Positions 9,979 to 46,394 of a DNA stretch of 46,891 nucleotides are shown in pieces. Under the pieces are notes generated by a model. That model saw nothing but the letters and a program-made list of their open reading frames with translations, searched no databases and had not been told where the DNA came from. The position numbers were made by a program, and so were the translations under genes. Position 1 is the stretch's first letter; every line of letters starts with the position of its first letter. Origin of the DNA: Acidobacteriota bacterium (GTDB taxonomy: Bacteria; Acidobacteriota; UBA6911); the NCBI GenBank assembly GCA_016934295.1, contig JAFGTD010000252.1, positions 1 to 46,891 on the forward strand, in the 5' to 3' direction.

Positions 9979-10021
9979 GTCGTTGATGGCTTTCCGTGAA
10001 TGATTCCTGTCTTGTTTTTGA

Positions 10022-11776
10022 TTATCTCCAGGCATCGATCGAGACGCCCCTGCCGGCCATAAAGTCGGTTATGAACCAGACACTGGCTGTCTCTCCTCCC
10101 ACTACGATCGTCCGAATATTGTTCGGGTTCGGCAGATGCTTGATCAATGTGTCGCTTGGGACTTTTCTCCAGGTGGCATAGGGCTCGAGACCCTGGTCGC
10201 CAAGGGGACCCATCATGCCGGAAGCGATGGAGTTCGCCCAGTAGGTTCCCGCGGTCGTGACCGCGTTCTCGGAGAGCCATTCGGCAAGAGCTCCCTTTGT
10301 TTTGAATCCCTGGGAGTTTCTGAGCAGATCCGCTACTGACGGATCCATAATGAGTGTCGCCGATCCCATTGCCGCCAGCACCCGCGTAAAGTCCCTCATT
10401 AAAAGCTGGGGAGCGTAATGCTCGACGACCGATCCCGAACAGTTCACGAAGTTCCAGCCCATGAGTATCGTGAGAACGCTGTCTTCCGGTTTGTGACCGT
10501 TCAGCACATGGAAAGGCTCCCATCCGTCAGGCAGGGCTTCCTCGTTTTCCGCTATGGTCACGTAGTTGTAGAGCAGCGGATTGCTGAGGGAGGAGAAACC
10601 GGACACGCCCTCCCGGTATCCCTGAATTATTTTATGTATCAGGACCATGGAGCGGCCGATGACAGAATTGGCCTCGGCATTCGGTCCCAAGGCCCCTATA
10701 CCCGAATTCATTCCGATCTCGTTGCGAACGGGGCCGTTCACCAGCACCATGCTCGCGCTGGAGGTAGTGGAATCCATATACGGGACCTGGCTGGAGAGCG
10801 CCAGGATCGTGGGCAGGTATTCGGGTTTGGCGCCCGCCATGACGGCAATGATGGCGACCTTTTCCACCGTGAACGGACGGGTGGTATTAAAGGTGCCGGA
10901 TTCTTTCTTCACCAGTTCATCCGGTGCGTGGCTGGTGCCTTCAAGCATTGCGGCGACTTTCTCTTCTGTCGGGAGTATGACTGGATTGTAGTCGGTCCAG
11001 TGTTTGTCCTTAAACAGGCGCTGCAGATTATCCGCGGTGTCCGGGGGCAGCAATCTCGGTTCGGGTTCCGCCTCTGCCGGGATCCCGGACATCTTTTCCT
11101 TATCCGTCAAGGGGGTTGTCAGGCTGTCGACGATCGCCTGCATCACTGGTTTGCCGCTGACGTTATCTTTGCCTTCGAGATAGGTTTTCAGCATTTCTTC
11201 GTTAAGGCCCGTAAAGGGATAGGGCATTCCGACGTAACGCAGGGGCATGCCGGTACTGTATTTGAAATGGGCGTTAATTCCGAAGGACACAACGTTTTCA
11301 TTCGCAAGCGACACTGTGGGGATGCCGTACTGTGTTTCCAGAAGTCCGTTGAAGCGGCTCACGGCCGAGATGCAGCCCCATCAGCCGGCTACGCCCATGA
11401 TGACGCCATCCCCTCCTTTTTCGGCTATCTCCTTCCATAATGCGGGATCATCCGAAATGTAGCTGCCGCTCTTGAGCTTGAGTACGGTCTTGACTCCGGG
11501 CATGTTGCGCGCAAACCACCGCTGCATTTCCCCCATCACGGGAGTGCCCAGGATCCCTTCATAGTTCATGTCCACCAGGTAGATGGTTTTGCCTTCCAGG
11601 GTGTCCAGCCGGGGCGCCAGCGGCACTCGCTCCGCAAGTTTCTCCATAACAGCCGGATTCAGAACGGTAATCATTGCTTCGGGGGATTTACACGCGGACG
11701 AAATAGTAACGACGCACGACAGGATCAGGGCTGTAAACGCCGGCAGGCAGCTTGACAATAACGGTTTTCTTTTCAT
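10022..11776 (-). CDS. Exported UGSC-type selenoprotein, in-frame TGA (Sec) at 11381-11383
   Basis: Two open frames, 11776-11384 and 11380-10022, are in the same phase and separated only by a TGA. Read through, they give 584 residues with selenocysteine at position 132. The flanks match the UGSC (seleno)protein family on both sides: before it, a Rossmann-like block with LAPRLDTLEGKTIYLVD and DGVIMGVAG; after it, the motif U-W-G-C, then a helix and YGIPTVSLANENV. The C-terminal 400 residues form the long domain often linked to this family (EKVAIIAVMAGAKPEYLP, LVNGPVRNEIGMNSG, GALGPNAEANSVIGRS). The N-terminus MKRKPLLSSC plus a hydrophobic segment ending SSAC looks like a signal peptide or weak lipobox, so the protein is probably periplasmic. 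GAGG precedes the start. A plain nonsense mutation is possible, but conservation past the TGA argues against it. Confidence 0.85.
11355..11383 (-). promoter_or_regulatory. Candidate bacterial SECIS element
   Basis: Immediately after the UGA (11383-11381) the transcript can form a short stem, CGGC (11367-11364) with GCCG (11358-11355), closing a 5-base loop C-G-U-G-A. The loop lies about 18-22 bases after the UGA and contains a GU pair. This is the spacing and loop content that SelB recognises in bacterial SECIS hairpins. An alternative longer pairing of GGCU with AGCC exists. The stem is short, so this rests on position and loop composition. Confidence 0.5.
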
Positions 11777-12925: not shown

Positions 12926-13579
12926 TTACATTAACATCTCTTCGATCCATGAAAACCAGGAATCCAGTCCTTCCCCGGTCTTGGCGGAAACCGGGAAAAC
13001 TTTAGCGGAAGGATTCAGGCCTCTTATTATCCCGGGGAAGTCGTCCAAATTGAAATCAAAATGTGGCAGAACGTCCGTTTTATTTACAACAACCGCATCC
13101 GCCTCGATAAAGATTACCGGGTATTTATAGGGTTTGTCGTCCCCTTCGGGAATGCTCAGGATGACGACGTTTTTATGCGCACCGAGGTCAAAATCGGCAG
13201 TGCAGACAAGATTCCCGACATTTTCAATGAAGATCAGGTCGATTTGGCCGAGATCCATTGTGTCCAGCGAATTCCTTATCATCCGGGCGTCCAGGTGGCA
13301 GCCGCCGCCGGTATTTATCTGAATTGCCGGGATGTTCTGACGTGTTATTTTGTCCGTGTCAATGGAAGAGGCGATATCCCCTTCAATAACCGCGATCCGG
13401 TATTTATGCCGAAAGCGGTTGACCGTTTGCAGAATCAGGCTGGTCTTGCCCGATCCCGGGGACGACATGACATTGACCATCAGGACGTTGCGACTGCTCA
13501 GTAATTTCCGGCTCTGTTCCGCCTTTTCCGTATTCGCCGCCAGGATATTTTCTTTTACGGATACTGTTTTGGCGCTCAT
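12926..13579 (-). CDS. hypB: Hydrogenase nickel incorporation GTPase HypB
   Basis: A 217-residue SIMIBI-class GTPase that loads nickel into metalloenzymes together with HypA. Visible motifs are the P-loop SSPGSGKTS (about 39-47), the switch GDIASSIDTDK, the inter-subunit metal-site Cys-His in GGGCHLDARM (C94, H95), ENVGNLVCTADFDLGAHKNV and the guanine motif NKTD. The high-affinity N-terminal CxxCGC motif and the His-rich tail found in some HypB are absent, so this is the minimal form. The start codon follows the hypA stop directly (TAA then ATG). No hydrogenase, urease or CODH structural genes are in the window, so the nickel client is unknown. Confidence 0.95.
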   Translation of the reverse strand: MSAKTVSVKENILAANTEKAEQSRKLLSSRNVLMVNVMSSPGSGKTSLILQTVNRFRHKYRIAVIEGDIASSIDTDKITRQNIPAIQINTGGGCHLDARMIRNSLDTMDLGQIDLIFIENVGNLVCTADFDLGAHKNVVILSIPEGDDKPYKYPVIFIEADAVVVNKTDVLPHFDFNLDDFPGIIRGLNPSAKVFPVSAKTGEGLDSWFSWIEEMLM

Positions 13580-13921
13580 TTACTCCACCTTCATATTCTC
13601 GATATAAAGTTCCCGTCCGCCGACAATCTCCACGCGTCCCCCTGCGCATTCCGGGCAGCGGTAATCGCGTTTCTGCAATGGGAAAAGGATATCACAGTCC
13701 CGGCAGCGCAGCTGTGCGGGCACGTGCGTGTAATGAATCCTGGCGCCGGCGGCGATGGTGTCTTTGCTGAGGAAACCGAAATAAAAGTTTACGGCGTCTT
13801 CCTCTACCCCGGTGTAATCGCCGACAACCAGGTGGATGCTGATGATTTTTCGGGCGTCGCCCTTGCGGGCGTTATCGAGCGCAAGTCTTAATAGAGATTC
13901 AACAATGCTCTGTTCGTGCAT
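13580..13921 (-). CDS. hypA: Hydrogenase maturation nickel metallochaperone HypA
   Basis: A 113-residue protein. It starts with the obligatory MHE (His2 and Glu3 help form the nickel site), and zinc is held by two CxxC pairs, C73/C76 and C89/C92. The helix SIVESLLRLALDNA and the strand KIISIHLVVGDYTGV are typical. It forms the hypA-hypB unit without the rest of the hyp set. The 270 bp upstream contain an inverted repeat and must hold the promoter unless reading continues from the molybdopterin subunit gene. No clear ribosome site is seen before the ATG. Confidence 0.95.
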   Translation of the reverse strand: MHEQSIVESLLRLALDNARKGDARKIISIHLVVGDYTGVEEDAVNFYFGFLSKDTIAAGARIHYTHVPAQLRCRDCDILFPLQKRDYRCPECAGGRVEIVGGRELYIENMKVE

Positions 13922-14021
13922 GGAACAATAACGGGTATGTTAATTCCAACCAAATCCAAGGCATTCAGCCGTGCGACCCCGGGAGGCTAGGCCGTTCCGG
14001 AGAACGTTGATGGCGGGAGCA

Positions 14022-14124
14022 CATCGGGGTCGGAGTCGCTATCGGCATCGGGGATCTGTTTATACGTTTGAAAAAACAGATTCTTTACTTTGCAATCGAT
14101 TCCGAACCCGATACCGACCCCGAG
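14022..14124. repeat. Imperfect inverted repeat of CGG/TCG-rich units
   Basis: The left arm at 14023-14053 (ATCGGGGTCGGAGTCG and on) is repeated in inverse orientation at 14097-14124 (CCCGATACCGACCCCGAG), about 45 bases apart. Each arm is itself built of short ATCGG/TCGG units. The arrangement resembles intergenic palindromic repeats scattered in some Desulfobacterota genomes. It lies between the molybdopterin subunit gene and hypA, so it could act as a transcript-stabilising or attenuating hairpin. Copy number elsewhere cannot be judged here. Confidence 0.5.
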
Positions 14125-14192
14125 CCCCGCTCCACCGGGCAAGCCGAAGCTGCGTCTTCCAGAATTACTCCCCACCGGTGTAAAAAACGTAT

Positions 14193-16484
14193 CTAAACCT
14201 TTCCCAGGGCTTTCAGAATCTTGTCCGGCGTGGCGGGCGGTGCGATCCAATGCCCTATCGCGTTGGCCACCGCGCAGACGGGAAGCAGCGGAGCCGCCAT
14301 GCAGTGGCTGATGCCCGAAGCGCCGTAACAGGCGTTCCCCGATCGAGTTTCAACAGCGTAGGTATCGATCGGACCCAGATCCGCGATGGTGGGCTTCTTA
14401 TACTCGAACATGTTCGTGCTGAGCTTTACGCCCGTCTTCTTGTCGTAGATAAACTCCTCGGACAATCCCCCGCCCTGGCTGAAGTACATCGCCTGGTGCA
14501 GCTGCCCTTCGAACGAAGTCATCCTGAGTACCTTGCCCGGGTCGCAGACGACCACGAATCTGGTTACCTCCACTCCGCCGGTATCGGGATCCACGGCCAC
14601 TTCGCAGTAGCTTGTATTCATGACGTCGAGGATATGTCCGCCTTTAGCCCACGTTGTTTCCGGAGGCCTCCCGAAATACGTTGCCGTGATATCCAGATCG
14701 TGATCGCCGAATCCTTCATCCGCGATGAACTTTCCGAAGGGGAAGGCTTTGTTCGGATCCGACTTCAGGTAGACCATGGTGTCTTTCGTGTCGAGATCCT
14801 CCGGGCTGGTATTGAACACCCTGGATTTGGCGGCCAGGTCCAGGAGCAGTTTTCTGCATTTTACGGCCGCTTCCTTCATGACCCAGGCGGATGCGGTGGA
14901 ACCGTCGCTTCCGCCTCCACACGGAGTGAATATAGCTTTTTCATCATAGCGCAGGATCACGTCCTCGACTTTTGCGCCCATCTCTTCAGCGACAACCAGG
15001 GCTACGGCATCCGCGGAGTAAATACCGGCCCAGGGTCCCTTGAGCGGTATGTAAACCTTGTTGTCCGCCTGAATGGTTACTGTCGCGGTGTACGGTTGCT
15101 GGGCGTGCCGGGGTGACAGGGCGTACCGGAAGCTGAGTCCGTGCAACCGACCGTCCGGGAGTTTTCGAGTGCCGGCCGGATGCCATTTCCAATCCATGGC
15201 CTTTTTCCCCTTTTCCACGCACATCAGCAGACCGGGGGGGATGCCGGGATCCTGCTGGGATGAAGGCCCGTGGACGTTCCTGAGCGCGATATCGATCACG
15301 TCCGTGCCGAGTTTTTCCGCCACAATCTGCTCCGCTATTGTCATGACGTCCCAGTTGAACGGGGAAGTCTGGCTGAGAGTATTGCGGCCTGAATTGGTGT
15401 AGACTTCCTGGAAACGGCTCTTTTGATGGACACATCGGGTTGTATTGAAAGGGCTGAATCTTGCTTCGAATGCTCCCCATGCGGAGGCTGTTTCTTCCGG
15501 GGCTCCCTGATCCCCGATGGTGCTTTCCTCAACGGCCGTAATCGTTCCGTCCTTTTTGAATCCGATCTTTACGTGACAATATCGCTGTGGATTCGCCACA
15601 TAGTAATCGTTCCGCCTTTCGTTAACGCAGCGGACGGGCCGCCCCGTTCTGCGGGCCAGCAGAGGCGTAATGAGCTGGGAGCGGCGGATGATCCAGTCGC
15701 AGTACTTGCCGCCCTGAAACAGGGTCAGGCGATGGAGCTTGTCGAAGTCGATATTGTACAGGGGGCGAAGCTGAAATGCTCCCCACGTAGGAGATACGCC
15801 TTCGATATACAGGGTAGGGCCTTCGGATCCCCATGGGTCCTGAGCCCACCATGCGAGGCTCCCGTTCGGATTCGGTATGTGCGATGCCGTGCGGGAGTGC
15901 CCCCAGTCGAATTCGAGAATATGATCCGCCTCTTTGAATCCGGATTCGATATCCCCGGCAGCATAGTTCGACAGCAGCTTCTTTGGATCGTGCTTGATAA
16001 CCGGCGCGCCCGGTTTCAGTCCATCCCGGGCATCCACAATGCTTGGCAGAATTTCCCATTCCACCTCAATCAGTCTCAGGGCCTCGTCACAGATTTCCGG
16101 GGTTACGGCGACAACAACCGCACCTATCTCCTCGTCTTCCGTCTCCGCTTCACCCGGGATCAGGGGGCCGTGGATCCCGGCCATTGTATTGACGGGCGGA
16201 TGGGTCAGACCCGGATTTATGGACAGGACCTCCGGATCGTCCCAGGTGACGATATCCACAACGCCCTCCAGTTCCTTTGCCTTGCTGATATCCAGACTCT
16301 TTACCTTAGCCCGGCCATGGGGGCTTCGAAGAAATTTGGCGTGGAGCATGTCGGACATGACCGCATCGGCGCCGTATTTGGCCCGGCCGGTGGCTATGGT
16401 ATACGACAGCCTGCCGGGGACGTTTGCCCGACCGACAGCCTTGAATTCCGTTCTCTGTCCATTGCTGCCTGCAATGTCTGCCAT
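14193..16484 (-). CDS. Xanthine dehydrogenase family molybdopterin-binding subunit, divergent and lone
   Basis: A 763-residue large subunit of the molybdenum hydroxylase family; GAGG is 7 bases before the ATG. The N-terminal a/b-hammerhead is visible (VPGRLSYTIATGRAKYGAD, LHAKFLRSPHGRAKV), followed by the Moco-binding halves (GRPVRCVNERRNDYY, TPCGGGSDGSTASAWV and a late CAVANAIG). In canonical members a Gly-Glu near the C-terminus supplies the catalytic glutamate. The corresponding stretch here, YGASGISHCM (residues 720-729), has no Glu. The FAD and [2Fe-2S] subunits are not adjacent. Substrate and even hydroxylase activity are therefore open. It precedes hypA on the same strand after 270 bp. 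Confidence 0.85.
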   Translation of the reverse strand: MADIAGSNGQRTEFKAVGRANVPGRLSYTIATGRAKYGADAVMSDMLHAKFLRSPHGRAKVKSLDISKAKELEGVVDIVTWDDPEVLSINPGLTHPPVNTMAGIHGPLIPGEAETEDEEIGAVVVAVTPEICDEALRLIEVEWEILPSIVDARDGLKPGAPVIKHDPKKLLSNYAAGDIESGFKEADHILEFDWGHSRTASHIPNPNGSLAWWAQDPWGSEGPTLYIEGVSPTWGAFQLRPLYNIDFDKLHRLTLFQGGKYCDWIIRRSQLITPLLARRTGRPVRCVNERRNDYYVANPQRYCHVKIGFKKDGTITAVEESTIGDQGAPEETASAWGAFEARFSPFNTTRCVHQKSRFQEVYTNSGRNTLSQTSPFNWDVMTIAEQIVAEKLGTDVIDIALRNVHGPSSQQDPGIPPGLLMCVEKGKKAMDWKWHPAGTRKLPDGRLHGLSFRYALSPRHAQQPYTATVTIQADNKVYIPLKGPWAGIYSADAVALVVAEEMGAKVEDVILRYDEKAIFTPCGGGSDGSTASAWVMKEAAVKCRKLLLDLAAKSRVFNTSPEDLDTKDTMVYLKSDPNKAFPFGKFIADEGFGDHDLDITATYFGRPPETTWAKGGHILDVMNTSYCEVAVDPDTGGVEVTRFVVVCDPGKVLRMTSFEGQLHQAMYFSQGGGLSEEFIYDKKTGVKLSTNMFEYKKPTIADLGPIDTYAVETRSGNACYGASGISHCMAAPLLPVCAVANAIGHWIAPPATPDKILKALGKV

Positions 16485-37137: not shown

Positions 37138-37350
37138 TTAAACGCTTTCGCCGGAACGGTTCCGGTGCATCTCCGCTATGACCTCATCGCAGAGGTCGGA
37201 TAACCCCACCAGTCCCACCGGCCGGCCGTTTTCCGTGACCAGGATGGATAATGTCTGCCATTCCACCATGCGGTGAATGACTTCGCGAATCGGTGTTTCG
37301 ATATCAATATGCTCTTTAAGGAATGAAATTCTACGGGGAGTGTCGATCAC
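37138..37350 (-). CDS. Single CBS-domain protein
   Basis: A 70-residue protein with GTG start overlapping the stop of the upstream receiver gene (GTGA), so translation is coupled. It shows one CBS unit: IETPIREVIHRMVEWQTLSI, LVTENGRPVGLVGLSDLCDE. CBS domains bind adenine nucleotides as pairs, so a homodimer is expected here. Coming last in a kinase/receiver operon, it may report energy state to the signalling system or to the nearby transporters. The missing first strand suggests a minimal or partial unit. Confidence 0.8.
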   Translation of the reverse strand: MIDTPRRISFLKEHIDIETPIREVIHRMVEWQTLSILVTENGRPVGLVGLSDLCDEVIAEMHRNRSGESV

Positions 37351-37781
37351 CAGCCTTTCTTTTTCAGGACATCCTCGATTGCGTGAGCGGAACGCTCCTC
37401 GATCAGCGTCAGCCGTTGAACAGCGGCTTTTCCGATTACTTCCGACAGTGTCTGTATATCGATAGGCTTTTCAAAAAATTCCGTGGCGCCGACTTTGAGA
37501 GCCTCGACGCTCTTGGAAATCGTTCCATGTCCCGTAAGGACAATGACCTGTTGGTCGGCATCGTCGGCCAGAAGCTTCTTTAATGTTTCTATGCCGTCCA
37601 TGCCGGGCATTTGCAAATCGAGGATTACGGCGTCGAAACGGTGTTGTCCTGCAAGATCGATGGCCTCACGACCCGAGGATGCGGTAAAAACCTCCAGATC
37701 GCGCAACCGGAGACGTTCCGATAATGTTTCCGTGAATTCCTTCTCGTCATCGACTAGGAGTACTTTTGCACTGCTCATCAT
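37347..37781 (-). CDS. Single-domain response regulator (receiver)
   Basis: A 144-residue receiver without output domain: acidic pair KVLLVDDEKEF, phospho-acceptor D55 in AVILDLQMPGMDG, switch Thr in VLTGHG and Lys105 in FFEKPID. The C-terminal 25 residues form a charged helix (RLTLIEERSAHAIEDVLKKKG). AAGGAA precedes the ATG. Such receivers act as phosphate sinks or relays, here probably for the dCache kinase encoded in the same operon. Confidence 0.93.
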   Translation of the reverse strand: MMSSAKVLLVDDEKEFTETLSERLRLRDLEVFTASSGREAIDLAGQHRFDAVILDLQMPGMDGIETLKKLLADDADQQVIVLTGHGTISKSVEALKVGATEFFEKPIDIQTLSEVIGKAAVQRLTLIEERSAHAIEDVLKKKGW

Positions 37782-37797: not shown

Positions 37798-38472
37798 TCA
37801 ATCCCGGTTCGAAGAGAGAATCAATCGAATCAGGATTTGAGTTTCGTTCTTTTCATACAATAATTGGCCGTTAATCGCCTGGGCCTGTTCTTTCAACGCA
37901 TTGAGTTTATCCAGGAAATCGGGCGGGATGGTTTCGACTTGTCCGGAAACCTGAAGCTCCGAATTTTCTCCGTTTTCCGGCCGTTTTATGACGACGGAGA
38001 CTTCGTGTGAGGATGCATCCAGAAACTGGTCCAGACATGCGAAAAGAATGCGTCGCAGCTCAAAGGGATCGGTGCTGAGAGAAATCCCTTCAGACGGATT
38101 GGAAACGGTCAGATCCGTTTGACGGTTTTTGAAAAGCCTGTCCGTCAAAACCTGCATGTTTTCCACCACCTGGTCGAGATCGACCTCCTCCCGCGCGTTG
38201 TCCGCGCTGTGCGAGAAATGATTCATGTGTGAAACAAGGTGTTTGCCCCGCGCAACCTGTTTTGAGATGTTGTCCGACAGGGATTCAATCTTGTCGTTAG
38301 GGATCGGGCGCCCCTTGCGAGCCAACAGGGACAGGTCTTTTAGAAGCCCTGCCAGCTCGCTGATCACCGTGATGATATTATTGAATTCATGGGATACGTT
38401 GGCCATGATGCGGCCGAAAAATACGATATTTTCTCTGGAGCCGCCGCGGTGATCGGATAAATTTTCTTTCAT
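37798..38472 (-). CDS. Degenerate histidine kinase (DHp domain with non-canonical ATPase domain)
   Basis: A 224-residue soluble protein. The DHp helix is intact: FGRIMANVSHEFNNIITVIS with the phosphorylatable H28. The second part has the position of an N-box (LRRILFACLDQFLDAS) but lacks the conserved Asn. No G1 (DxGxG) or G2 motif can be found, and the domain ends early at LIRLILSSNRD. It therefore probably cannot bind ATP by itself. It may be a histidine phosphotransfer scaffold or a phosphatase between the receivers on either side of it. There is no sensor domain and no membrane segment. Confidence 0.8.
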   Translation of the reverse strand: MKENLSDHRGGSRENIVFFGRIMANVSHEFNNIITVISELAGLLKDLSLLARKGRPIPNDKIESLSDNISKQVARGKHLVSHMNHFSHSADNAREEVDLDQVVENMQVLTDRLFKNRQTDLTVSNPSEGISLSTDPFELRRILFACLDQFLDASSHEVSVVIKRPENGENSELQVSGQVETIPPDFLDKLNALKEQAQAINGQLLYEKNETQILIRLILSSNRD

Positions 38473-38476
38473 GACT

Positions 38477-38854
38477 TTATGAATATAGTGCTACGGCTTC
38501 CCGCAGCTTGACGATCAAATCCTCGATATCTATGGGTTTGATGACGTAGTCGATAGCCCCTGCCTTGAGCCCTTCTTCATTTGCCTCCTTGGACATATGA
38601 CCGGTTAGAAGAATGACGGGCAGGTTCTTTTTGACCTGTTTGATCTGTTTCATTACGTCGACGCCGTCTTCGCCCTTTAGTTTGATGTCCAACACGACGA
38701 CATTGAATATATTATTTCGTATCTGATCCAGCGCCTGCGCTCCCGTCTCTACGGCGACTGCGTCGAAACCTCGGATTTCCAGACGCTCCACGAGAGTTGC
38801 GGACAAGTCCACCTCGTCATCCACTATCAGGACTTTCATCGATTGCTCCATCAT
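38477..38854 (-). CDS. Single-domain response regulator (receiver)
   Basis: A 125-residue receiver. The acidic pair is in KVLIVDDEVDL, the phospho-acceptor Asp in NVVVLDIKLKGEDG, the switch Thr in LLTGH and the Lys in YVIKPIDIEDL. The start may be ATG 38854 or the internal ATG 38839, which has a GGAG six bases before it and begins the first strand. It lies 11 bp after the dCache kinase, so the two form the natural kinase-receiver pair. Confidence 0.93.
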   Translation of the reverse strand: MMEQSMKVLIVDDEVDLSATLVERLEIRGFDAVAVETGAQALDQIRNNIFNVVVLDIKLKGEDGVDVMKQIKQVKKNLPVILLTGHMSKEANEEGLKAGAIDYVIKPIDIEDLIVKLREAVALYS

Positions 38855-38865
38855 CCCCCCAGAGT

Positions 38866-40584
38866 TTATACCGGTCGTTCCACAGGCAGGGTAACTGTGA
38901 AAGTTGTCCCTTCCCCCAGTTCGCTCTCAACGTAAATGGTGCCGCGGAGCTTTTTCACAATGCCGTAAGATATGGAGAGCCCAAGCCCGGTTCCTTTTGA
39001 TTTCTTGGTGCTGAAAAAAGGTTCGAAGATGTGTTCGATATCTTTCCGGGCGATTCCAATCCCGTCGTCCTTTATTTTCACTATCACATGATTGGGCGCT
39101 TTATCGCCCACCGAGATTTCCAGCCTTCCCCCCTTTTTCATGGCATCGAACGCATTATTGATCAAATTAAGAAAAAGCTGTTGGAGCTGGCCGCGGTCGC
39201 TGTGGACCGTAGGGAGGGCGTCGGCCACCTGCATGTCTATGTGGATGTCGCGATAGTCGGCTTCCTTTTCCAGAAAGCCGAGGACGTCGCGGATGAGGGC
39301 GTCGATGGCTACCGGCTCTATTTTTATGTCTATATGACGGGCAAATCCAAGCAATCTATGGGTGATCTCGCTGCAGCGGGTAACCGACTGGATGATGGCA
39401 TTGGTCTGTTTGAGCAGTCGTTCTCTATCGGGCGGATTTTCTTTGGGCATGCCCAGTAGATCCTTAATCAGCCCGGCTTTTTCGTTAATGATCGCGAGGG
39501 GATTATTGATTTCATGCGCGACGCCAGCGGCCAGCCGGCCGATGGACGCCATGCGGTTGGTGTGTTCGATGTTGTGCAGACTGGCTTCCCGGCGCAGGTC
39601 GGCCTGTCTGATTCTTTCCACCCAACCGGAGGTGATCCCCATAATAATGACCAGGATCGCGATAATGCTCAGGGCCAGAAAGGCAAACATTTCCTTTTTG
39701 TAAGTCTGCCAGCCTGCCAGAATGTCTTCCCGATTCGCAATAATCGCGAAAAGAAAAGGCGATTCCTTTATGAAGGAATAGCCCATGATATAGGACCTGT
39801 CCCCGATTTTCATGTCTTCAATGAGTTGGGATCCTTCCGCGTATTGGGGAATCCTGCCGGGAAATTTCTGGAATGCTTCTCCAAACATGCTGGACGGCGT
39901 CTGCAGAATCCCTTCCCGGTTGAGCAGAAAAACATCGCTGGCCTGGATATGGCCCGCGATCTGGATTTTTTGAACCAGCCCTTCCGTGTCTATGGTGGCC
40001 CTGAAAATGATGGGCTCGCCCCGTTCGCTTTCCCGGTTTACGGCGATGACGAAATGGGGCAGGTTCCTGTGCCCGAGGAAAATGTCCGAAACGTATACGT
40101 CGCGGACCAGGACTTTCCCGAACCAGTCCTGGTCGCGGTAATCCTTCCCGGTCAGTTCGTAGGGTCCCTCATAGGTTCTCATAATGCCGCTGGAATCGAT
40201 GACGCCGATATCTACAATGCCGCCGAAAGAGTGCTTCATCCGGGCAAAGATGCGAGTGAGGTTGTCCTTGTTGAAGAGATCTTCGGGTTGCTCTCTTGAA
40301 GAGACGTATTTAGCCGCGGCGATTCTTTCTTCAATAAAGGATTCCAGTGAGAGTTTGGTTACGGACGCGATGCTTTGGAAGGGCTGCAGGAGTTCCTTCT
40401 GTGTGGATCTCCTGTACAAAAAATAGTTGACGCTTGTGATGCTTACCAGAGGAATAAGGGAAACGGCCGCCACGGCAAGGACCGTTCTTTGCCACATTTG
40501 GCGGTATCGGGACGGCTTTCCGTCTTCGGTGCGAGAGCCGTCGATGAATATGATTTTTTTGACTTGCCCGACAAACCAGTTCAT
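38866..40584 (-). CDS. Membrane sensor histidine kinase with periplasmic dCache domain
   Basis: A 572-residue kinase. It has transmembrane helices at about 33-56 and 298-320. Between them lies a double-Cache ligand-binding domain (for example GGIVDIGVIDSSGIM, YRDQDWFGKVL, YVSDIFLG, FVIAVNRES, VFLLNREGILQTP). The cytoplasmic core has H357 in AAGVAHEINNPLAII, the N-box LFLNLINNAFDAM, G1 KDDGIG and G2 GTGLGLS: an active NtrB-like HisKA kinase. The DQDWF motif is typical of Cache domains that bind small organic acids or amines. It heads a set with two receivers and a degenerate kinase and probably controls the adjacent anion transporters. Confidence 0.93.
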   Translation of the reverse strand: MNWFVGQVKKIIFIDGSRTEDGKPSRYRQMWQRTVLAVAAVSLIPLVSITSVNYFLYRRSTQKELLQPFQSIASVTKLSLESFIEERIAAAKYVSSREQPEDLFNKDNLTRIFARMKHSFGGIVDIGVIDSSGIMRTYEGPYELTGKDYRDQDWFGKVLVRDVYVSDIFLGHRNLPHFVIAVNRESERGEPIIFRATIDTEGLVQKIQIAGHIQASDVFLLNREGILQTPSSMFGEAFQKFPGRIPQYAEGSQLIEDMKIGDRSYIMGYSFIKESPFLFAIIANREDILAGWQTYKKEMFAFLALSIIAILVIIMGITSGWVERIRQADLRREASLHNIEHTNRMASIGRLAAGVAHEINNPLAIINEKAGLIKDLLGMPKENPPDRERLLKQTNAIIQSVTRCSEITHRLLGFARHIDIKIEPVAIDALIRDVLGFLEKEADYRDIHIDMQVADALPTVHSDRGQLQQLFLNLINNAFDAMKKGGRLEISVGDKAPNHVIVKIKDDGIGIARKDIEHIFEPFFSTKKSKGTGLGLSISYGIVKKLRGTIYVESELGEGTTFTVTLPVERPV

Positions 40585-40624: not shown

Positions 40625-41836
40625 TTATTTGTGCGGCTGGGATTTGATTAATTCCTTTGCCCGTTTCATCGTGTCGGAAAGTTCGTCGATGTCGACCGGC
40701 TTTTCCAGGTAAGCGAAGGCGCCCAAGGACATGCAGAGTTCCCTGTCTTTTTCAGTGCCGTGTCCCGTAAGAATGATAACGGCTACACTGGGATATTCCT
40801 TTTTGACCTTCTTCAGGACTTCTATGCCGTCAATGCCGGGCATTCTTAAATCCAGGACCATGACTTCCGGAGTCTCTTCTTCCAGCAGGTTTAATGCTTC
40901 TTCGCCGCTGTAAACGACGGCGGGTTCGACATCTCTCATTTCCAGTCGCTCTGAAAGGGTTGTAACAAAGTCCTTTTCGTCGTCTACAAGAAGCACTTTT
41001 TCCGGTAAATCCAGTTCTATGTTTGCGAAGACGGAGGGTGGACGGTAATTGGGGCCCGGTTTTACGACAATTTCCCTTATGCCTTTTATGGGGCCGAGGA
41101 TTTTTTTGATTTCGGTTTCCAGTCGCTCCATCAACATCACATACTCATTTATGGTCACCGTGACGATTCCCTCGCGGCAGGAAACCGCATGGTAATGCCC
41201 TTCTTCAATCAGCGCCATTTCGGACCGGGATGCAATCCGAAAATCCTCCAGGAAACGAAGGGAGGATTCGGAGTAGAGGAGCGCCGGTTTGAAGATATTC
41301 TCTTCGATCAGACACACCGCTCCGTCAATCCCGGTATCGTTCACCATAATGACCAGGTCGTATAGGGACTTGTCCCAGGGCTTTGCCTTGCGGATTAACT
41401 GGGTCCATTGGGCGCTTATCAGATCGTCTTCGCGCAGGCGATGGAGTGCATTGCTGCTTTCATCCCCCTCGGCTTTCCTCAGGTTTTCAGTGCGCCACGC
41501 GGAATCGGCCAGCAGGCAGATCCGCAGCACGTGTCCGATTTCCGCCGGGATCAGGTGGGCTGCATACCCGTAAAGGATCTGTTTGTCGGACAACATCTCG
41601 GCAAGCTTTATTTTGAGTTGGGCAACGGTTTTTTCGCGCCGATGGGTGAATTTGTTGAAAACGAAGGGAGGGCCTTCCATTGCACGAGTCAAGTGTTTGG
41701 GCGTACTGCCGAATTGTTCTGCGGCAGCGGCAATCAGGTCTCCGTCGATTCGTTTCCAGTCCAGCTTTTTCGACAAAATATTCGCTATTTCTTCACCCCG
41801 GCAGAAAGACGCGCTGAAAATGGATAGAATTGCCAT
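40625..41836 (-). CDS. Cytidylate-kinase-like domain fused to a response-regulator receiver
   Basis: A 403-residue protein. Residues 1-190 match the cytidylate-kinase-like family (LSIFSASFCRGEEIANIL, WKRIDGDLIAAAA, KQILYGYAAHLIP, LRICLLADSAWRTENL, YDLVIMVND). The nucleotide loop SASFCRGEE lacks the GxGK(S/T) of true kinases, so phosphotransfer is doubtful. Residues 195-262 are a BON-like small domain. Residues 280-395 are a complete receiver: KVLLVDDEKDF, D329 in VMVLDLRMPG, TGHG and K379 in YLEKPVD. It is the first gene of the kinase operon and diverges from the SulP fusion gene across 130 bp. It may be a nucleotide-responsive regulator. Confidence 0.85.
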   Translation of the reverse strand: MAILSIFSASFCRGEEIANILSKKLDWKRIDGDLIAAAAEQFGSTPKHLTRAMEGPPFVFNKFTHRREKTVAQLKIKLAEMLSDKQILYGYAAHLIPAEIGHVLRICLLADSAWRTENLRKAEGDESSNALHRLREDDLISAQWTQLIRKAKPWDKSLYDLVIMVNDTGIDGAVCLIEENIFKPALLYSESSLRFLEDFRIASRSEMALIEEGHYHAVSCREGIVTVTINEYVMLMERLETEIKKILGPIKGIREIVVKPGPNYRPPSVFANIELDLPEKVLLVDDEKDFVTTLSERLEMRDVEPAVVYSGEEALNLLEEETPEVMVLDLRMPGIDGIEVLKKVKKEYPSVAVIILTGHGTEKDRELCMSLGAFAYLEKPVDIDELSDTMKRAKELIKSQPHK

Positions 41837-41966: not shown

Positions 41967-44555
41967 ATGCTTCGAAAAATTTTCCCCTTTATTGACTGGT
42001 TCAGAGACTACAGCATTGGGGCCTTCAAGTCGGATTTCGTTTCCGGAGTGACCGTAGCGCTGGTGCTTATACCGCAGTCCATGGCCTACGCTCAGCTCGC
42101 CGGACTCCCGGCATACTACGGCCTGTATGCGGCTTTCCTGCCTCCGATGGTTGCAGCCCTTTTCGGCTCGAGCCGCCAGCTGGCGACCGGTCCTGTAGCG
42201 GTCGTTTCATTGATGACCGCAGCGACTTTGGAACCTTTGGCAACCGCCGGGGGGGAAGCCTATATCGCGTATGCAATCCTGCTGGCTCTTCTGGTGGGCC
42301 TGTTCCAGCTTTCCCTGGGCGTGTTGCGGTTAGGCGTTGTTGTAAATTTTCTCTCGCATCCTGTGGTGATCGGATTTACCAATGCGGCTGCTATTATTAT
42401 CGCCACAAGCCAGTTATCCAAATTATTCGGTGTGTCGGTGGACAGCGCGGCGCACCATTACGAGACAATATGGCGGGTTGTACTGGCAGCATGGAACTTT
42501 ACGCACTGGCCGACATTTTTTCTCGGGGTGTTGGCTTTCGGCATCATGTTCAGCCTGAAGAAACTGAATCCCAAAATTCCATATGTCCTGGCGGCTGTTG
42601 CCGTGACGACTCTAATTTCCTGGGGGATCGGTTTCCAGAAGGATCGCGTCGTTAGCCTGGATCAGATAGATTCCCGGGAGGTTCGCGATCACATCCTGGA
42701 ATTCAATAGAGATGTTCATGATATCGAACTGGTATCGGAAGCCCGTTCCATTCTTAACTCTCAGGTGGGAGAGATTGGAGAAATTGAGGACGTTCATAAT
42801 CCCCTGTGCCTGAAGTGTCATACCCATCACGAGCTTAATCTGCAGTCCCTGCGTGGAGCGGGCCCTGCCGTCAACAAGAATGTGCTGCCCAAGACCATTC
42901 TCCAGCTTCACGCCATGGCCGGATTGATGGACCTGCAGATAGATCAGGTCAAAGAAAGAGCGTCCGAACTTCGAAAAACTTTGCGTGCTCTCGAGTTCCA
43001 CCTTGTCGAATCCGAAGGCTCGGCGCGTTTCGTTCCCGCTGAAGACAACGAAGAGGAGCCGAAGGTTTGGCGGATGCGCGTTGGAAACAATCAGCTCGAT
43101 CCCGATAAAATAACCTTCATGGGAGGCGGTGCGGTAGTAGCGACCATTCCCGGCGGACTGCCGAAAATGTCGATTCCCGAATGGGACGGATCGGTTTTCG
43201 GGCAGCTTTTTATTGCCGCCATTATCATCTCCATCCTCGGCTTTATGGAAGCCATTTCCATTGCCAAAGCCATGGCGGCCCGCACGGGACAACGCCTGGA
43301 TCCCAACCAGGAACTCATAGGGCAGGGCCTGGCGAATATTTTCGGGTCTGTCGGGCAGAGCTATGCGGTGTCCGGGTCTTTTTCGCGCTCCGCCGTCAAT
43401 ATACAATCCGGGGCTGTCTCCGGCCTGTCCAGCGTAATAACGAGCGCCGTTGTTGTCGTCGTTTTGATGTTTTTCACGCCTCTCCTGTATCATCTGCCCC
43501 AGTCGGTGCTGGCGTCCGTCATCATGATGGCCGTCATCGGGCTGGTGAATTTCAAGGGGGTCGTTCACGCGTACAAAGTCAAGCAGTCCGACGGCATTAT
43601 AAGCATCGTTTCTTTCGTGGCGACCTTGATTTTCGCCCCTCATCTGGACAGGGGAATCCTCATCGGTGTCGCGCTGTCCATCGGCATATTCCTCTACGGT
43701 AAAATGAAACCCCAGGTGGCCGAGCTGTCGCTCTGGTCCGACGGTCACTTTCATTCCGCCCAGCGCCGCCGTCTCAAACAATGCAAGCACCTTGCGGTCA
43801 TCCGCTTTGACGGCCCTCTTTTCTTCGCCAATACGAGCTACCTGGAAGACGAGGTTCTGGATCGCGTCCGGAAGATGCCCGGGCTGAAAGCCATTCTGTT
43901 CAAGTCTGACGGTATAAACGAAATAGACGCTACCGGCGAGGATATGCTGTCGCTTCTCATCGACCGGCTCCGGTCCGGCGGGTATGACGTTTATTTCAGC
44001 GGCTTCAACGAAGATGTCGTGGACACGCTGCGGCGGTCCCACCTCTACGAAAAGATCGGGAAGGACCATATATTTATTACCCTGGTCGATGCCGTCGATA
44101 AGATCTGGCCGTTCATCCATGAGAAAACGGATGAAGATACCTGCCCACTGGTACAGGTTGTTCCCCTGGAGGCGGAGATACAGAAACCGCTGGTCCGGGT
44201 ACTGCTCGTCGACGACGAAAAGGATTTTGTTGCGGCGCTGGCAAAGCGGTTGGACCGGCGTGGAATGAAAGCGGACTTCTGCCATAACGGCACCGATACT
44301 CTCAACCTGCTTATAGAAAACGAATATGACGCGGTTGTTCTGGACCTGAGGCTCGAGAAGGAAAAAGGGGAAAACGTGTTGCGAAGCATTTTGGATATGC
44401 GACCCAAACAACCCGTAATCCTGCTTACAGGCCACGGAGCGATCGATTCCGCTGTCGAGTGTATGCGGTATGGAGCATTCGATTACATGCTGAAGCCCTG
44501 CGATATCGATGAACTGGTCAAGAAGATCCATGCGGCTCAAAAGGCTTCATCCTGA
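41967..44555 (+). CDS. SulP anion permease with inserted CXXCH (heme c-type) domain, STAS domain and C-terminal receiver
   Basis: An 862-residue fusion. Residues 1-222 and 386-580 form the SulP core (SGVTVALVLIPQSMAYAQLAG, split here; IPGGLPKMSIP; GFMEAISIAKAMA; DPNQELIGQGLANIFGS). Residues 606-715 are a STAS domain (HLAVIRFDGPLFFANTSYL, LKAILFKSDG, NEIDATGEDML). Residues 743-860 are a receiver with D793 (AVVLDLRLE), T821 and K843. Between helices 7 and 8, where SulP proteins have a short loop, about 160 extra residues are inserted (223-385). These hold CLKCH (281-285) plus HH, and a long charged helix. By the 7+7 SulP topology this loop is periplasmic, where heme c can be attached. Substrate unknown (sulfate, bicarbonate or carboxylate). 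Confidence 0.9.
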   Translation: MLRKIFPFIDWFRDYSIGAFKSDFVSGVTVALVLIPQSMAYAQLAGLPAYYGLYAAFLPPMVAALFGSSRQLATGPVAVVSLMTAATLEPLATAGGEAYIAYAILLALLVGLFQLSLGVLRLGVVVNFLSHPVVIGFTNAAAIIIATSQLSKLFGVSVDSAAHHYETIWRVVLAAWNFTHWPTFFLGVLAFGIMFSLKKLNPKIPYVLAAVAVTTLISWGIGFQKDRVVSLDQIDSREVRDHILEFNRDVHDIELVSEARSILNSQVGEIGEIEDVHNPLCLKCHTHHELNLQSLRGAGPAVNKNVLPKTILQLHAMAGLMDLQIDQVKERASELRKTLRALEFHLVESEGSARFVPAEDNEEEPKVWRMRVGNNQLDPDKITFMGGGAVVATIPGGLPKMSIPEWDGSVFGQLFIAAIIISILGFMEAISIAKAMAARTGQRLDPNQELIGQGLANIFGSVGQSYAVSGSFSRSAVNIQSGAVSGLSSVITSAVVVVVLMFFTPLLYHLPQSVLASVIMMAVIGLVNFKGVVHAYKVKQSDGIISIVSFVATLIFAPHLDRGILIGVALSIGIFLYGKMKPQVAELSLWSDGHFHSAQRRRLKQCKHLAVIRFDGPLFFANTSYLEDEVLDRVRKMPGLKAILFKSDGINEIDATGEDMLSLLIDRLRSGGYDVYFSGFNEDVVDTLRRSHLYEKIGKDHIFITLVDAVDKIWPFIHEKTDEDTCPLVQVVPLEAEIQKPLVRVLLVDDEKDFVAALAKRLDRRGMKADFCHNGTDTLNLLIENEYDAVVLDLRLEKEKGENVLRSILDMRPKQPVILLTGHGAIDSAVECMRYGAFDYMLKPCDIDELVKKIHAAQKASS

Positions 44556-44903: not shown

Positions 44904-46394
44904 ATGGCAAAAACCGATAGGGCAATCGAAATGGAAGCTTCTGCAACTTCTATTGACTGGAAGAAAGTCCTTTTCCTGCTTTTGGGGATAACTCTCTTTT
45001 TAGTGGTCTATTTTTGTCCCATGTGGCCGGACGCCGTGGATCCGCAGGGCGAGCATTTCCTTTTGACCAAGGAAGGGAAGGGCGCGATTGCCGTATTTCT
45101 GCTCGCGGCCACCTGGTGGGTGTTTGAGGTGGTGCCCATCGGCGTTACGAGCCTTGCGATCGGGCTGCTCCAGGCACTGTTTCTCATACGTTCTCCGAAA
45201 GAAGCCTTCAACGACTTCATGGATCCCTCCGTCCTTTTCATTTTTGGATCCATCGTCATCGGTACGGTCTTTACCAAAACGGGGCTGACCCGGAGGATCG
45301 CCTATAAAATGCTGTCCATCGTCGGTGAAAAGACCAGCATGATCTATCTCGGCTGTTTCGTGCTTACGGCGGCCCTGACCCATATCATGGCCCATACCGC
45401 GGTGGCGGCCACCATGTTTCCGCTGCTGATGGCAATATACGCGCTCTACACCGACGAAAAAGCCCCGACTAAATTCGGGAAAGGCCTTTTCATAGGCATG
45501 GCTTATGTCGCCGGGGCCGGCAGCGTCATCACCCTGCTCGGAGCGGCCCGCGGCGCCGTTGCCATCAGTTTTTTCAAAGATATCGCGAATACGGAAATCA
45601 GCTTCTTCGAGCTGAGTTATTATATGTTCCCGATCGGTTGGGGCATGACCATTCTGCTTTGGGTATTCTTCATGGTTTTCTGCAAGCCGGAGAAGGCCGT
45701 TATCCCGGGCCTGAAAGACAGGGCAAAAAGGATGTACCGGGAACTCGGGGCATGGAGCACGAAAGAGATTCTGGCCGCGCTTATAGTGGCGGGCACCATT
45801 CTGATAATTTCCCTCAAACAATTTGTCCCGGCTTTTTCGCAGCTGGACAAGACCGGTATTATACTCGGGGGCACGGTTCTTTTCTTTATTGTCAACATCC
45901 TTGACATCAACGACCTCGAGGAGATTCCCTGGAACATTATCCTGCTTTTCGCCGGGGCGATGTCGATCGGCTTCTGTCTCTGGGAAACCGGGGCGGCCGA
46001 ATGGATGGCCGTCAACTGGCTGACTCTCTTTCAGAATGCGCCGGCGATTTTCTTTATCCTAGGCATGGCATTTCTGGTAATGGTAATGACCAACTTCATC
46101 ATGAACGTGGCTGCCATATCCATAGCCCTGCCGGTGGCTCTCGTCATAGCGCCTTATCTCGGCATCGGAGGGGAAGTCATCCTGTTTTCCTCCCTGGTCG
46201 TTGCCGGAATGCCGTTTATGCTGCTGGTGGGTGCGGCTCCCAATGCCATCGCCTACAATTCCAGGCAGTTCACAACCGGCGAATTTTTCATGTACGGCAT
46301 TCCGGCCAGCATCCTTCTCATGGCGGCGACCTATATTGCCGTGCAGTTTATATGGCCTTTGATGGGAATGCAGGTTTACCTGCCCGGATCTTAG
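44904..46394 (+). CDS. SLC13/DASS-family anion:sodium symporter
   Basis: A 496-residue protein with 12-13 hydrophobic segments. Typical motifs are WWVFEVVPIGVTSLAIGL near helix 2, FMDPSVLFIFGSIVIGTVF, the first tip motif region ALTHIMAHTAVAATMFPLL, and the family signature GAAPNAIAYNSRQFTTGEF near the C-terminus. The Ser-Asn-Thr tip motifs of carboxylate carriers are replaced by AHTAVAAT and TNFIMNVAA, so the ion specificity may be sulfate, dicarboxylate or a related anion. Its position after the SulP-receiver fusion and the dCache kinase operon points to a shared anion-uptake programme. Confidence 0.9.
   Translation: MAKTDRAIEMEASATSIDWKKVLFLLLGITLFLVVYFCPMWPDAVDPQGEHFLLTKEGKGAIAVFLLAATWWVFEVVPIGVTSLAIGLLQALFLIRSPKEAFNDFMDPSVLFIFGSIVIGTVFTKTGLTRRIAYKMLSIVGEKTSMIYLGCFVLTAALTHIMAHTAVAATMFPLLMAIYALYTDEKAPTKFGKGLFIGMAYVAGAGSVITLLGAARGAVAISFFKDIANTEISFFELSYYMFPIGWGMTILLWVFFMVFCKPEKAVIPGLKDRAKRMYRELGAWSTKEILAALIVAGTILIISLKQFVPAFSQLDKTGIILGGTVLFFIVNILDINDLEEIPWNIILLFAGAMSIGFCLWETGAAEWMAVNWLTLFQNAPAIFFILGMAFLVMVMTNFIMNVAAISIALPVALVIAPYLGIGGEVILFSSLVVAGMPFMLLVGAAPNAIAYNSRQFTTGEFFMYGIPASILLMAATYIAVQFIWPLMGMQVYLPGS

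Follow-up and report, generated by a model that had tools for sequence, protein, structure and literature searches.

The genome of an Acidobacteriota bacterium (lineage UBA6911) encodes a SulP-type anion transporter whose loop between transmembrane helices (TM) 7 and 8 is occupied by a long insert carrying CXXCH, the attachment motif of c-type heme. The gene lies on contig JAFGTD010000252.1 of assembly GCA_016934295.1, of which positions 1 to 46,891 (forward strand) form the window, that is, the whole stretch of DNA analysed here. The chain continues past the transporter core into a STAS domain and a receiver domain, and the gene adjoins a set of signalling genes. Domain architecture, conservation of the motif and gene linkage are read directly from the sequences; we lean, with modest confidence, towards interpreting them as a c-type heme sensor hairpin on a sulfate-type SulP transporter tied to a phosphorelay. 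By sequence comparison this is a real, conserved and unusual SulP variant, and if our interpretation is correct, it would unite transport with phosphorylation and with the sensing of redox state or a gas. Papers cited here by PMC number are represented by excerpts of their texts.

By all sequence features tested, the encoded protein is a SulP/SLC26 transporter. The Sulfate_transp family of Pfam (PF00916) matches it in two stretches (345 bits, E 4.5e-103) and PF01740 matches the STAS domain with 45 bits, both above their curated cut-offs, while TIGR00815 scores 444 bits for a cut-off of 380. Together with the receiver match at the end of the same open frame, these results bear out the SulP core, STAS domain and receiver that a preliminary description of the window had assigned to a single chain. 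The acidic residue of TM8 and the basic residue of TM10, E428 and R474, are present in all nine insert-bearing proteins compared below; the corresponding Glu and Arg have been placed near the substrate site in SulP/SLC26 proteins (PMC8298490). At the position of the PXYGLY signature the protein reads LPAYYGLY. On the cytoplasmic side, two cysteines are found in all nine insert SulPs: C606 (43782-43784), at the start of the STAS domain, and C726 (44142-44144), in a CPL motif behind it.

The first Sulfate_transp stretch stops at profile position 219 of 380 and the second picks up there, with the insert falling between them, and the segment originally delimited (42633-43121, residues 223-385) lies in that gap. 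The TM7-TM8 loop measures 166 residues in the window protein and 137-166 in the nine insert proteins, as against 3-12 in 25 other SulPs of the same phylum. The helices had been named correctly: E428, 40 residues past the insert, aligns with residue 347 of AtSULTR4;1 (counted on the alignment), and Glu347 of that transporter is on TM8, which lines the substrate site, in a structure where TM1-7 and TM8-14 are related halves and the STAS domain is cytosolic (PMC8298490). Slc26a9 shares this 7+7 inverted repeat (PMC6656431). Since seven helices separate the insert from the cytosolic STAS domain, homology to the solved 7+7 structures places it probably on the periplasmic side, in support of the preliminary description.

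An AlphaFold2 model of the insert alone comprises two long helices and places the CXXCH motif at the tip (residues 269-309), a part of low confidence, while H315 is the eighth residue of the second helix; the model was built from a two-sequence input and has a mean predicted local distance difference test (pLDDT) score of 64, the tip scoring below 50 and two of the five models below 40. We infer that a periplasmic hairpin of two antiparallel helices has grown out of the TM7-TM8 loop. An added transmembrane helix within the insert, as in the group Ci transporters considered below, was rejected, no clear membrane-like segment being found by hydropathy: the highest 19-residue values of the nine inserts are 0.14-1.28, compared with segment means of 1.38-2.43 for TM7 and TM8. 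This exclusion is weaker for one homologue, G467, because its insert peak (1.28) nears the TM7 value of the Legionella protein.

The nine insert proteins are those of the window, of seven other genomes (G009, G379, G464, G469, G471, G299 and G467) and of a Legionella adelaidensis plasmid (NZ_LR134433.1). CLKCHTHH was found inside the window insert as first reported, with C281, C284 and H285 all within residues 223-388, and CXXCH recurs in G009, G379, G464, G469 and G471, that is, in five homologues with 85, 57, 56, 55 and 53% identity to the window protein over their whole length. The spacer residues vary across the six (LK, LK, QR, QR, QR and IG), and the equivalents of C281 and C284 are the only cysteines in their inserts. 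An assembly chimera or a chance occurrence was rejected, as motif and insert recur in separate assemblies, including that of G009 (JAFGAO010000276.1), whose 85% identical protein has the same insert. Seven residues are invariant in the six CXXCH inserts and found in none of the other three (C281, C284, H285, H315, G319, D322 and K329); the D322 column is Glu in all three, and A318 of the six is shared by G467 only. Common to all nine proteins are L339, F344, W368, G387, G388 and I394. G299 and G467 have a His one place past the H315 column, which was not counted as the same residue. It is highly improbable that CXXCH is merely neutral sequence of a variable loop, binding no cofactor. The insert is indeed the least conserved part between the window and G009 proteins (74% identity, compared with 85-90% elsewhere) and the motif is missing from three of the nine homologues; however, about 0.0003 such motifs are expected by chance per 166 residues, given the Cys and His content of the window protein itself, and the motif is invariant in six proteins along with H315 while the surrounding loop varies.

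A CXXCH motif exported in a cell with cytochrome-c assembly proteins would normally receive heme, and the assembly family PF01578 is above its cut-off in all eight insert genomes. We predict, with good confidence, a covalent c-type heme on the insert; the simplest arrangement would be one heme near the membrane-distal tip of the hairpin, with His/His ligands. SLC26 proteins are dimers (PMC8298490), and in a rival explanation, which we consider unlikely, the two hairpins of a dimer would meet through their cysteines in the manner of the Rad50 zinc hook, or each tip would bind a C2H2 zinc, for a structural or thiol-redox function without heme. The two Cys and two His could form such a C2H2 site, and Foldseek rows that are not significant include Rad50 coiled coils (1l8d, E 3.5; 6zff, E 2.9). 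The Rad50 zinc hook is likewise laid out as a helical hairpin tipped by CXXC. Yet six of six proteins keep, immediately behind the second Cys, a His that heme c requires and a zinc hook does not, and the general expectation for an exported CXXCH is, as stated, heme. Alternatively, the heme might serve electron transfer, the hairpin acting as a redox dock that links periplasmic cytochromes to the membrane, without sensing for transport. The same motif would support this, and the genomes have terminal oxidases and dsrA, but we regard it as quite improbable: the heme at the tip would be single, no second cofactor appears among the Pfam domains of the chain, and the conserved neighbours are signalling genes rather than oxidoreductases.

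On the cytoplasmic side, the fused receiver (PF00072, 84 bits) retains D749, D750, D793, T821 and K843, and with these key residues intact it should accept phosphate. The fusion is limited to the window and G009 among the nine insert proteins; the receiver that the preliminary description saw at the end of the chain thus holds for these two, while in four of the six CXXCH proteins the receivers are separate genes of the cluster. In place of the receiver, the G471 SulP (L048/L053) has a second STAS-like C-terminal stretch. Linkage to signalling genes extends to the whole CXXCH group: a cytidylate kinase-like protein with a C-terminal receiver (hereafter the kinase-like receiver protein) and a dCache sensor histidine kinase adjoin the SulP gene in six of six loci, the window included (tblastn), and are accompanied by a receiver, a HisKA protein and another receiver in five, the G009 contig ending within the kinase gene. 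These genes lie directly after the SulP gene and on its strand in G379, G464 and G469, and are divergent from it in the window, G009 and G471. The G379 and G464 kinases match dCache_1 below its cut-off, and the G471 kinase, part of which was masked, was matched in its kinase half only. The HisKA-only protein may be the phosphotransfer protein of a phosphorelay. The kinase-like receiver protein (L050, L051, L052, L053, L062) starts FSASFCRGEEI; as no clear P-loop is seen there by eye, it may be a kinase-like regulator.

The full kinase-like receiver protein was found in at least two of 38 genomes of the window's class and at least five of 148 of G379's class, and six of these seven genomes have a CXXCH SulP (pooled Fisher p 1.3e-10, a value that ignores relatedness); a sample of the phylum gave at least three of 396 (window, G009 and G379). 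Six SulPs without the insert (L056-L061) had no signalling set at E 1e-8, with weak matches to receiver parts only. G299 and G467 lack the signalling genes of the CXXCH loci, and have a different kinase and receiver nearby. Near these two heme-less SulPs (L054, L055) the genes are a histidine kinase and a receiver, with a CBS-domain protein between in G467. With a kinase and a receiver near heme-less SulPs too, an association with two-component systems may extend to the entire insert family. The interpretation first given for the window is strengthened, CXXCH coinciding both with a second invariant His and with conserved signalling genes.

The direction of this link could be reversed. The transporter with its heme hairpin might itself be the input, reporting anion supply and redox state to the dCache kinase, with the receivers and the kinase-like receiver protein as output. 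The linkage of SulP and kinase genes in all six loci, the separate receivers in four of them and the precedent of DauA (PMC5703999) speak for this; we nevertheless find it doubtful, since in the window and G009 the SulP chain includes a receiver whose key residues are intact, from which it follows that the transporter would accept phosphate and hence be a target.

Sulfate is the most likely candidate for the transported anion. Seven of the eight insert genomes have a dsrA match above cut-off, which two same-genus genomes lacking the insert do not. Across G379's class, dsrA occurs in 19 of 148 genomes, distributed as five of six with the insert versus 14 of 142 others (Fisher p 1.2e-4). The dsrA match of the window genome (G000:C177:7409-8566) holds one internal TAG. 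COX1 is strong in the six CXXCH genomes, weaker in G467 and absent from G299; it is also strong in the two same-genus genomes without the insert, and hence is no marker of the CXXCH group by itself. Acidobacteriota bearing dsr genes have been described as able to alternate sulfate reduction with respiration of oxygen (PMC10591310). Sulfate reduction begins with the uptake of sulfate, and a 2018 survey of the sulfate transporters of sulfate reducers stated, in the excerpted text, that the responsible proteins had not been identified in any study (PMC5840216). Downstream of the SulP gene, the window has a DASS-type anion symporter, which was matched in G009 only among the loci compared.

In the mechanism that we propose, the hairpin tip would carry one c-type heme through C281 and C284, ligated by H285 and probably H315, and this heme would sense the redox state of the periplasm or a small gas, either NO or O2. 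A change in heme state might move the hairpin, and with it TM7 and TM8, altering transport or the signalling of the transporter. On the other side of the membrane, phosphorylation of a receiver, fused or neighbouring, would act through the STAS domain, coupling the cytoplasmic face to the co-encoded phosphorelay of dCache kinase, HisKA protein, receivers and kinase-like receiver protein; a receiver is fused to the transporter itself in the lineage of the window. Information could flow either way, with the transporter as target or, like DauA with DctA and DcuS, as an input to the kinase. A sensing role for the heme is plausible. The fullest form of the proposal can be advanced tentatively at most: that the transporter is its own periplasmic heme sensor, a heme tip having been added to an existing hairpin of a SulP sulfate importer wired to a phosphorelay, such that redox state, O2 or NO switches sulfate uptake at the gate in Acidobacteriota bearing dsr genes and oxidases.

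Several results weigh against a heme sensor of this kind. The first concerns the motif, conservation of which turned out to be partial: six of nine insert homologues have it, and G299, G467 and Legionella adelaidensis keep the insert with an alignment gap where CXXCH should be, both the motif segment and the partner His at 315 being missing. An insert lacking CXXCH was a refuting condition named in the preliminary description, and it does occur, though in this patterned form. The earlier view of the insert as such as a heme module thus fails, and the hairpin must have another basic role; the long charged helix noted at the outset is present, but belongs to this older hairpin. PF01578, moreover, also occurs in nine of 14 control genomes, and so indicates only that heme attachment is possible. 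Structure prediction gave the hairpin for the insert alone; the full-length model (mean pLDDT 31) was not used. Four of the nine inserts were compared with Pfam, and no family attained its cut-off (E up to 10, with HMMER filters dropping most weak matches), the best rows, CysG_dimeriser (E 0.0024, G379) and cytochrome c' (E 0.018, G471), being below theirs; no PDB sequence matched significantly (best E 0.52), and none of 195 Foldseek structures reached E <=0.001. The insert was accordingly rejected as a known domain, and no weight was given to the weak rows for cytochrome c' and octaheme reductase (E 3.4). The link with sulfate reduction is confounded by family, because the six insert genomes of G379's class all belong to one family (f50), of which seven genomes have dsrA without an insert-SulP match; G471 (83% complete) has a CXXCH protein and no dsrA match. 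A further genome, G470, has the kinase-like receiver protein and dCache kinase on a 6284-base contig (L072) with no SulP, so that the gene set is not tied to SulP alone and may serve different transporters. The G470 neighbours look, by eye, like ABC-2 transporter genes. Finally, the case rests on nine insert proteins, from two classes of one phylum and one Legionella plasmid, and a single origin of the CXXCH group has moderate support.

That support comes from a tree of 34 SulP cores (nine with the insert and 25 others), from which insert and receiver were excluded and which carried a long-branch warning; two of the loci L007-L033 (L030 and L031) were left out, being receiver matches with no SulP frame, and 25 were kept. 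The nine insert proteins form one clade (support 100/98 with 34 cores, 94/95 in a 17-row tree), and a branch separates the six CXXCH proteins from the rest (83/76 and 84% of bootstraps with 34 cores; 75/87 and 74% with 17 rows). In the 34-core tree, G299 and G467 adjoin the CXXCH group and the Legionella protein is outermost. As the three proteins without CXXCH lack both the motif segment and the partner His, it seems that one group added the motif to a hairpin that was already there. We favour an order, suggested by sequence and tree, in which the hairpin came first and the heme tip later, through a single gain of CXXCH; a loss in G299 and G467 is possible. The heme-less sister proteins provide natural controls.

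The insert is sparsely distributed. Matches were found in at least two of 38 genomes of the window's class, at least six of 148 of G379's class (G379, G464, G469, G471, G299 and G467) and, in the phylum sample, as at least four SulP cases in 396 genomes, out of eight matches at E up to 0.01; these are lower bounds, part of the candidates having been scored. The other four matches of the phylum sample (L040-L043) were dropped as not being SulP proteins. Four genomes of the window's genus (G004, G006, G007 and G008) have SulPs without the insert, and a scan of genome contigs with patterns from the first helix of the insert matched only the 85% identical relative. A search of viral contigs gave no insert match. 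Among plasmids, a single record held at least 80% of the window protein in one place, that of Legionella adelaidensis; the window insert alone as query matched no plasmid, and six plasmid records passed 80% coverage with the Legionella protein as query, its own included. The Legionella SulP (L004), from a different phylum, has a 137-residue TM7-TM8 insert without CXXCH, and the insert family therefore extends beyond the phylum of the window. Its insert gave no significant match itself; position, placement in the tree and a shared end were the grounds for treating it as homologous.

Features of the window and their coordinates are collected in Table 1. Elsewhere in the window, hypA, a hypB-like gene and a subunit of molybdopterin xanthine dehydrogenase type occur together (12926-16484 and 7870-10035, both on the reverse strand), with phosphate acetyltransferase nearby.

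Table 1. Positions of the SulP gene, its parts and the neighbouring genes in the window
Feature	Position	Strand	Remarks
SulP-(hairpin insert)-STAS-receiver gene (P0001)	41967..44555	+	one open frame, 862 aa
SulP core, first half, TM1-7, residues 1-222	41967..42632	+	PF00916, first stretch
TM7-TM8 insert, residues 223-388	42633..43130	+	loop of 166 aa
First long hairpin helix, residues 237-269	42675..42773	+	AlphaFold2 insert model
CLKCH motif (C281, C284, H285), predicted heme attachment site	42807..42821	+	C, C and H invariant in 6/9 insert homologues
Second long hairpin helix, residues 308-341	42888..42989	+	AlphaFold2 insert model
H315, candidate second heme ligand	42909..42911	+	invariant in six CXXCH proteins; K/R/W in other three
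Strand region ending the insert, residues 343-386	42993..43124	+	conserved W368; GGG 386-388 at its end
SulP core, second half, TM8-14, residues 389-580	43131..43706	+	PF00916, second stretch
STAS domain, residues 607-709	43785..44093	+	PF01740, E 7.4e-12
Receiver domain, residues 745-854, phospho-acceptor D793	44199..44528	+	PF00072, E 1e-23; aligned with three other receivers of the window
DASS-type anion symporter	44904..46394	+	PF00939, E 2.1e-39; TIGR00785, 182 bits, below cut-off of 198.6
Cytidylate kinase-like protein with C-terminal receiver, divergent from SulP gene	40625..41836	-	PF13189, E 1.1e-18; PF00072, E 3.3e-28
dCache sensor histidine kinase	38866..40584	-	PF02743, PF00512, PF02518
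Stand-alone receiver	38477..38854	-	PF00072, E 8.3e-27
HisKA-only protein without recognised HATPase, between two receivers	37798..38472	-	PF00512, E 3.9e-5, below curated cut-off
Stand-alone receiver	37347..37781	-	PF00072, E 3.4e-29

The protein resembles the SulP/SLC26 family (PF00916, TIGR00815; AtSULTR4;1, BicA, DauA) in its two-piece core, STAS domain, TM8 Glu and TM10 Arg, and departs from it in the 166-residue TM7-TM8 insert with CXXCH and in the C-terminal receiver. With the Rad50 zinc hook (1l8d), it would share the hairpin, here modelled with a low-confidence tip, and CXXC; unlike the hook, the insert has two invariant His besides, one after CXXC and the other H315. A periplasmic c-type heme coupled to signalling is known from the chemoreceptor DcrA. 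The sensors GSU0582 and GSU0935 likewise couple one periplasmic c-type heme to a signalling protein, but are chemoreceptors with PAS/Cache-type folds and not transporters (PMC3460858). In the DauA-DctA-DcuS system of E. coli a SulP takes part in two-component signalling, as proposed here; the excerpted account names no receiver fusion or heme, and demonstrates physical contact where we have gene linkage alone (PMC5703999).

Among transporters, a related description is that of the group Ci SulPs of sulfate reducers, which owe a length of about 710 aa to an insertion of some 90 aa, its place not being given in the excerpted text, and in most cases replace the Pro of PXYGLY by Ala or Ser (Marietou et al. 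2018, PMC5840216). The window protein has a lengthening insertion and a replaced Pro (LPAYYGLY) too, and may belong to group Ci, length and PXYGLY variant agreeing in a comparison made by description only; the insertion of group Ci is said to add a transmembrane helix, however, and none is seen in the window insert. Neither "heme" nor "response regulator" appears in that text, and our literature search found, among the matches listed, neither a SulP described with a heme motif nor one fused to a receiver, in line with the unfamiliarity of an internal heme motif voiced in the preliminary description. A parallel for the motif is sCache_heme (DUF3365), for which a preprint proposes an origin by insertion of a short CXXCH fragment into an older domain; it is a periplasmic heme element which senses NO when fused to signalling modules (PMC12889525). 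The hairpin would function in the manner of such c-type heme sensor domains. As far as Pfam shows, sCache_heme is a different domain, no match to it being found for four inserts (Pfam, E up to 10, weak matches mostly filtered), and the element of the window sits in a transporter loop; if our interpretation holds, the hairpin tip would join sCache_heme as an example of an existing periplasmic element that gained a short CXXCH segment, here within a transporter.

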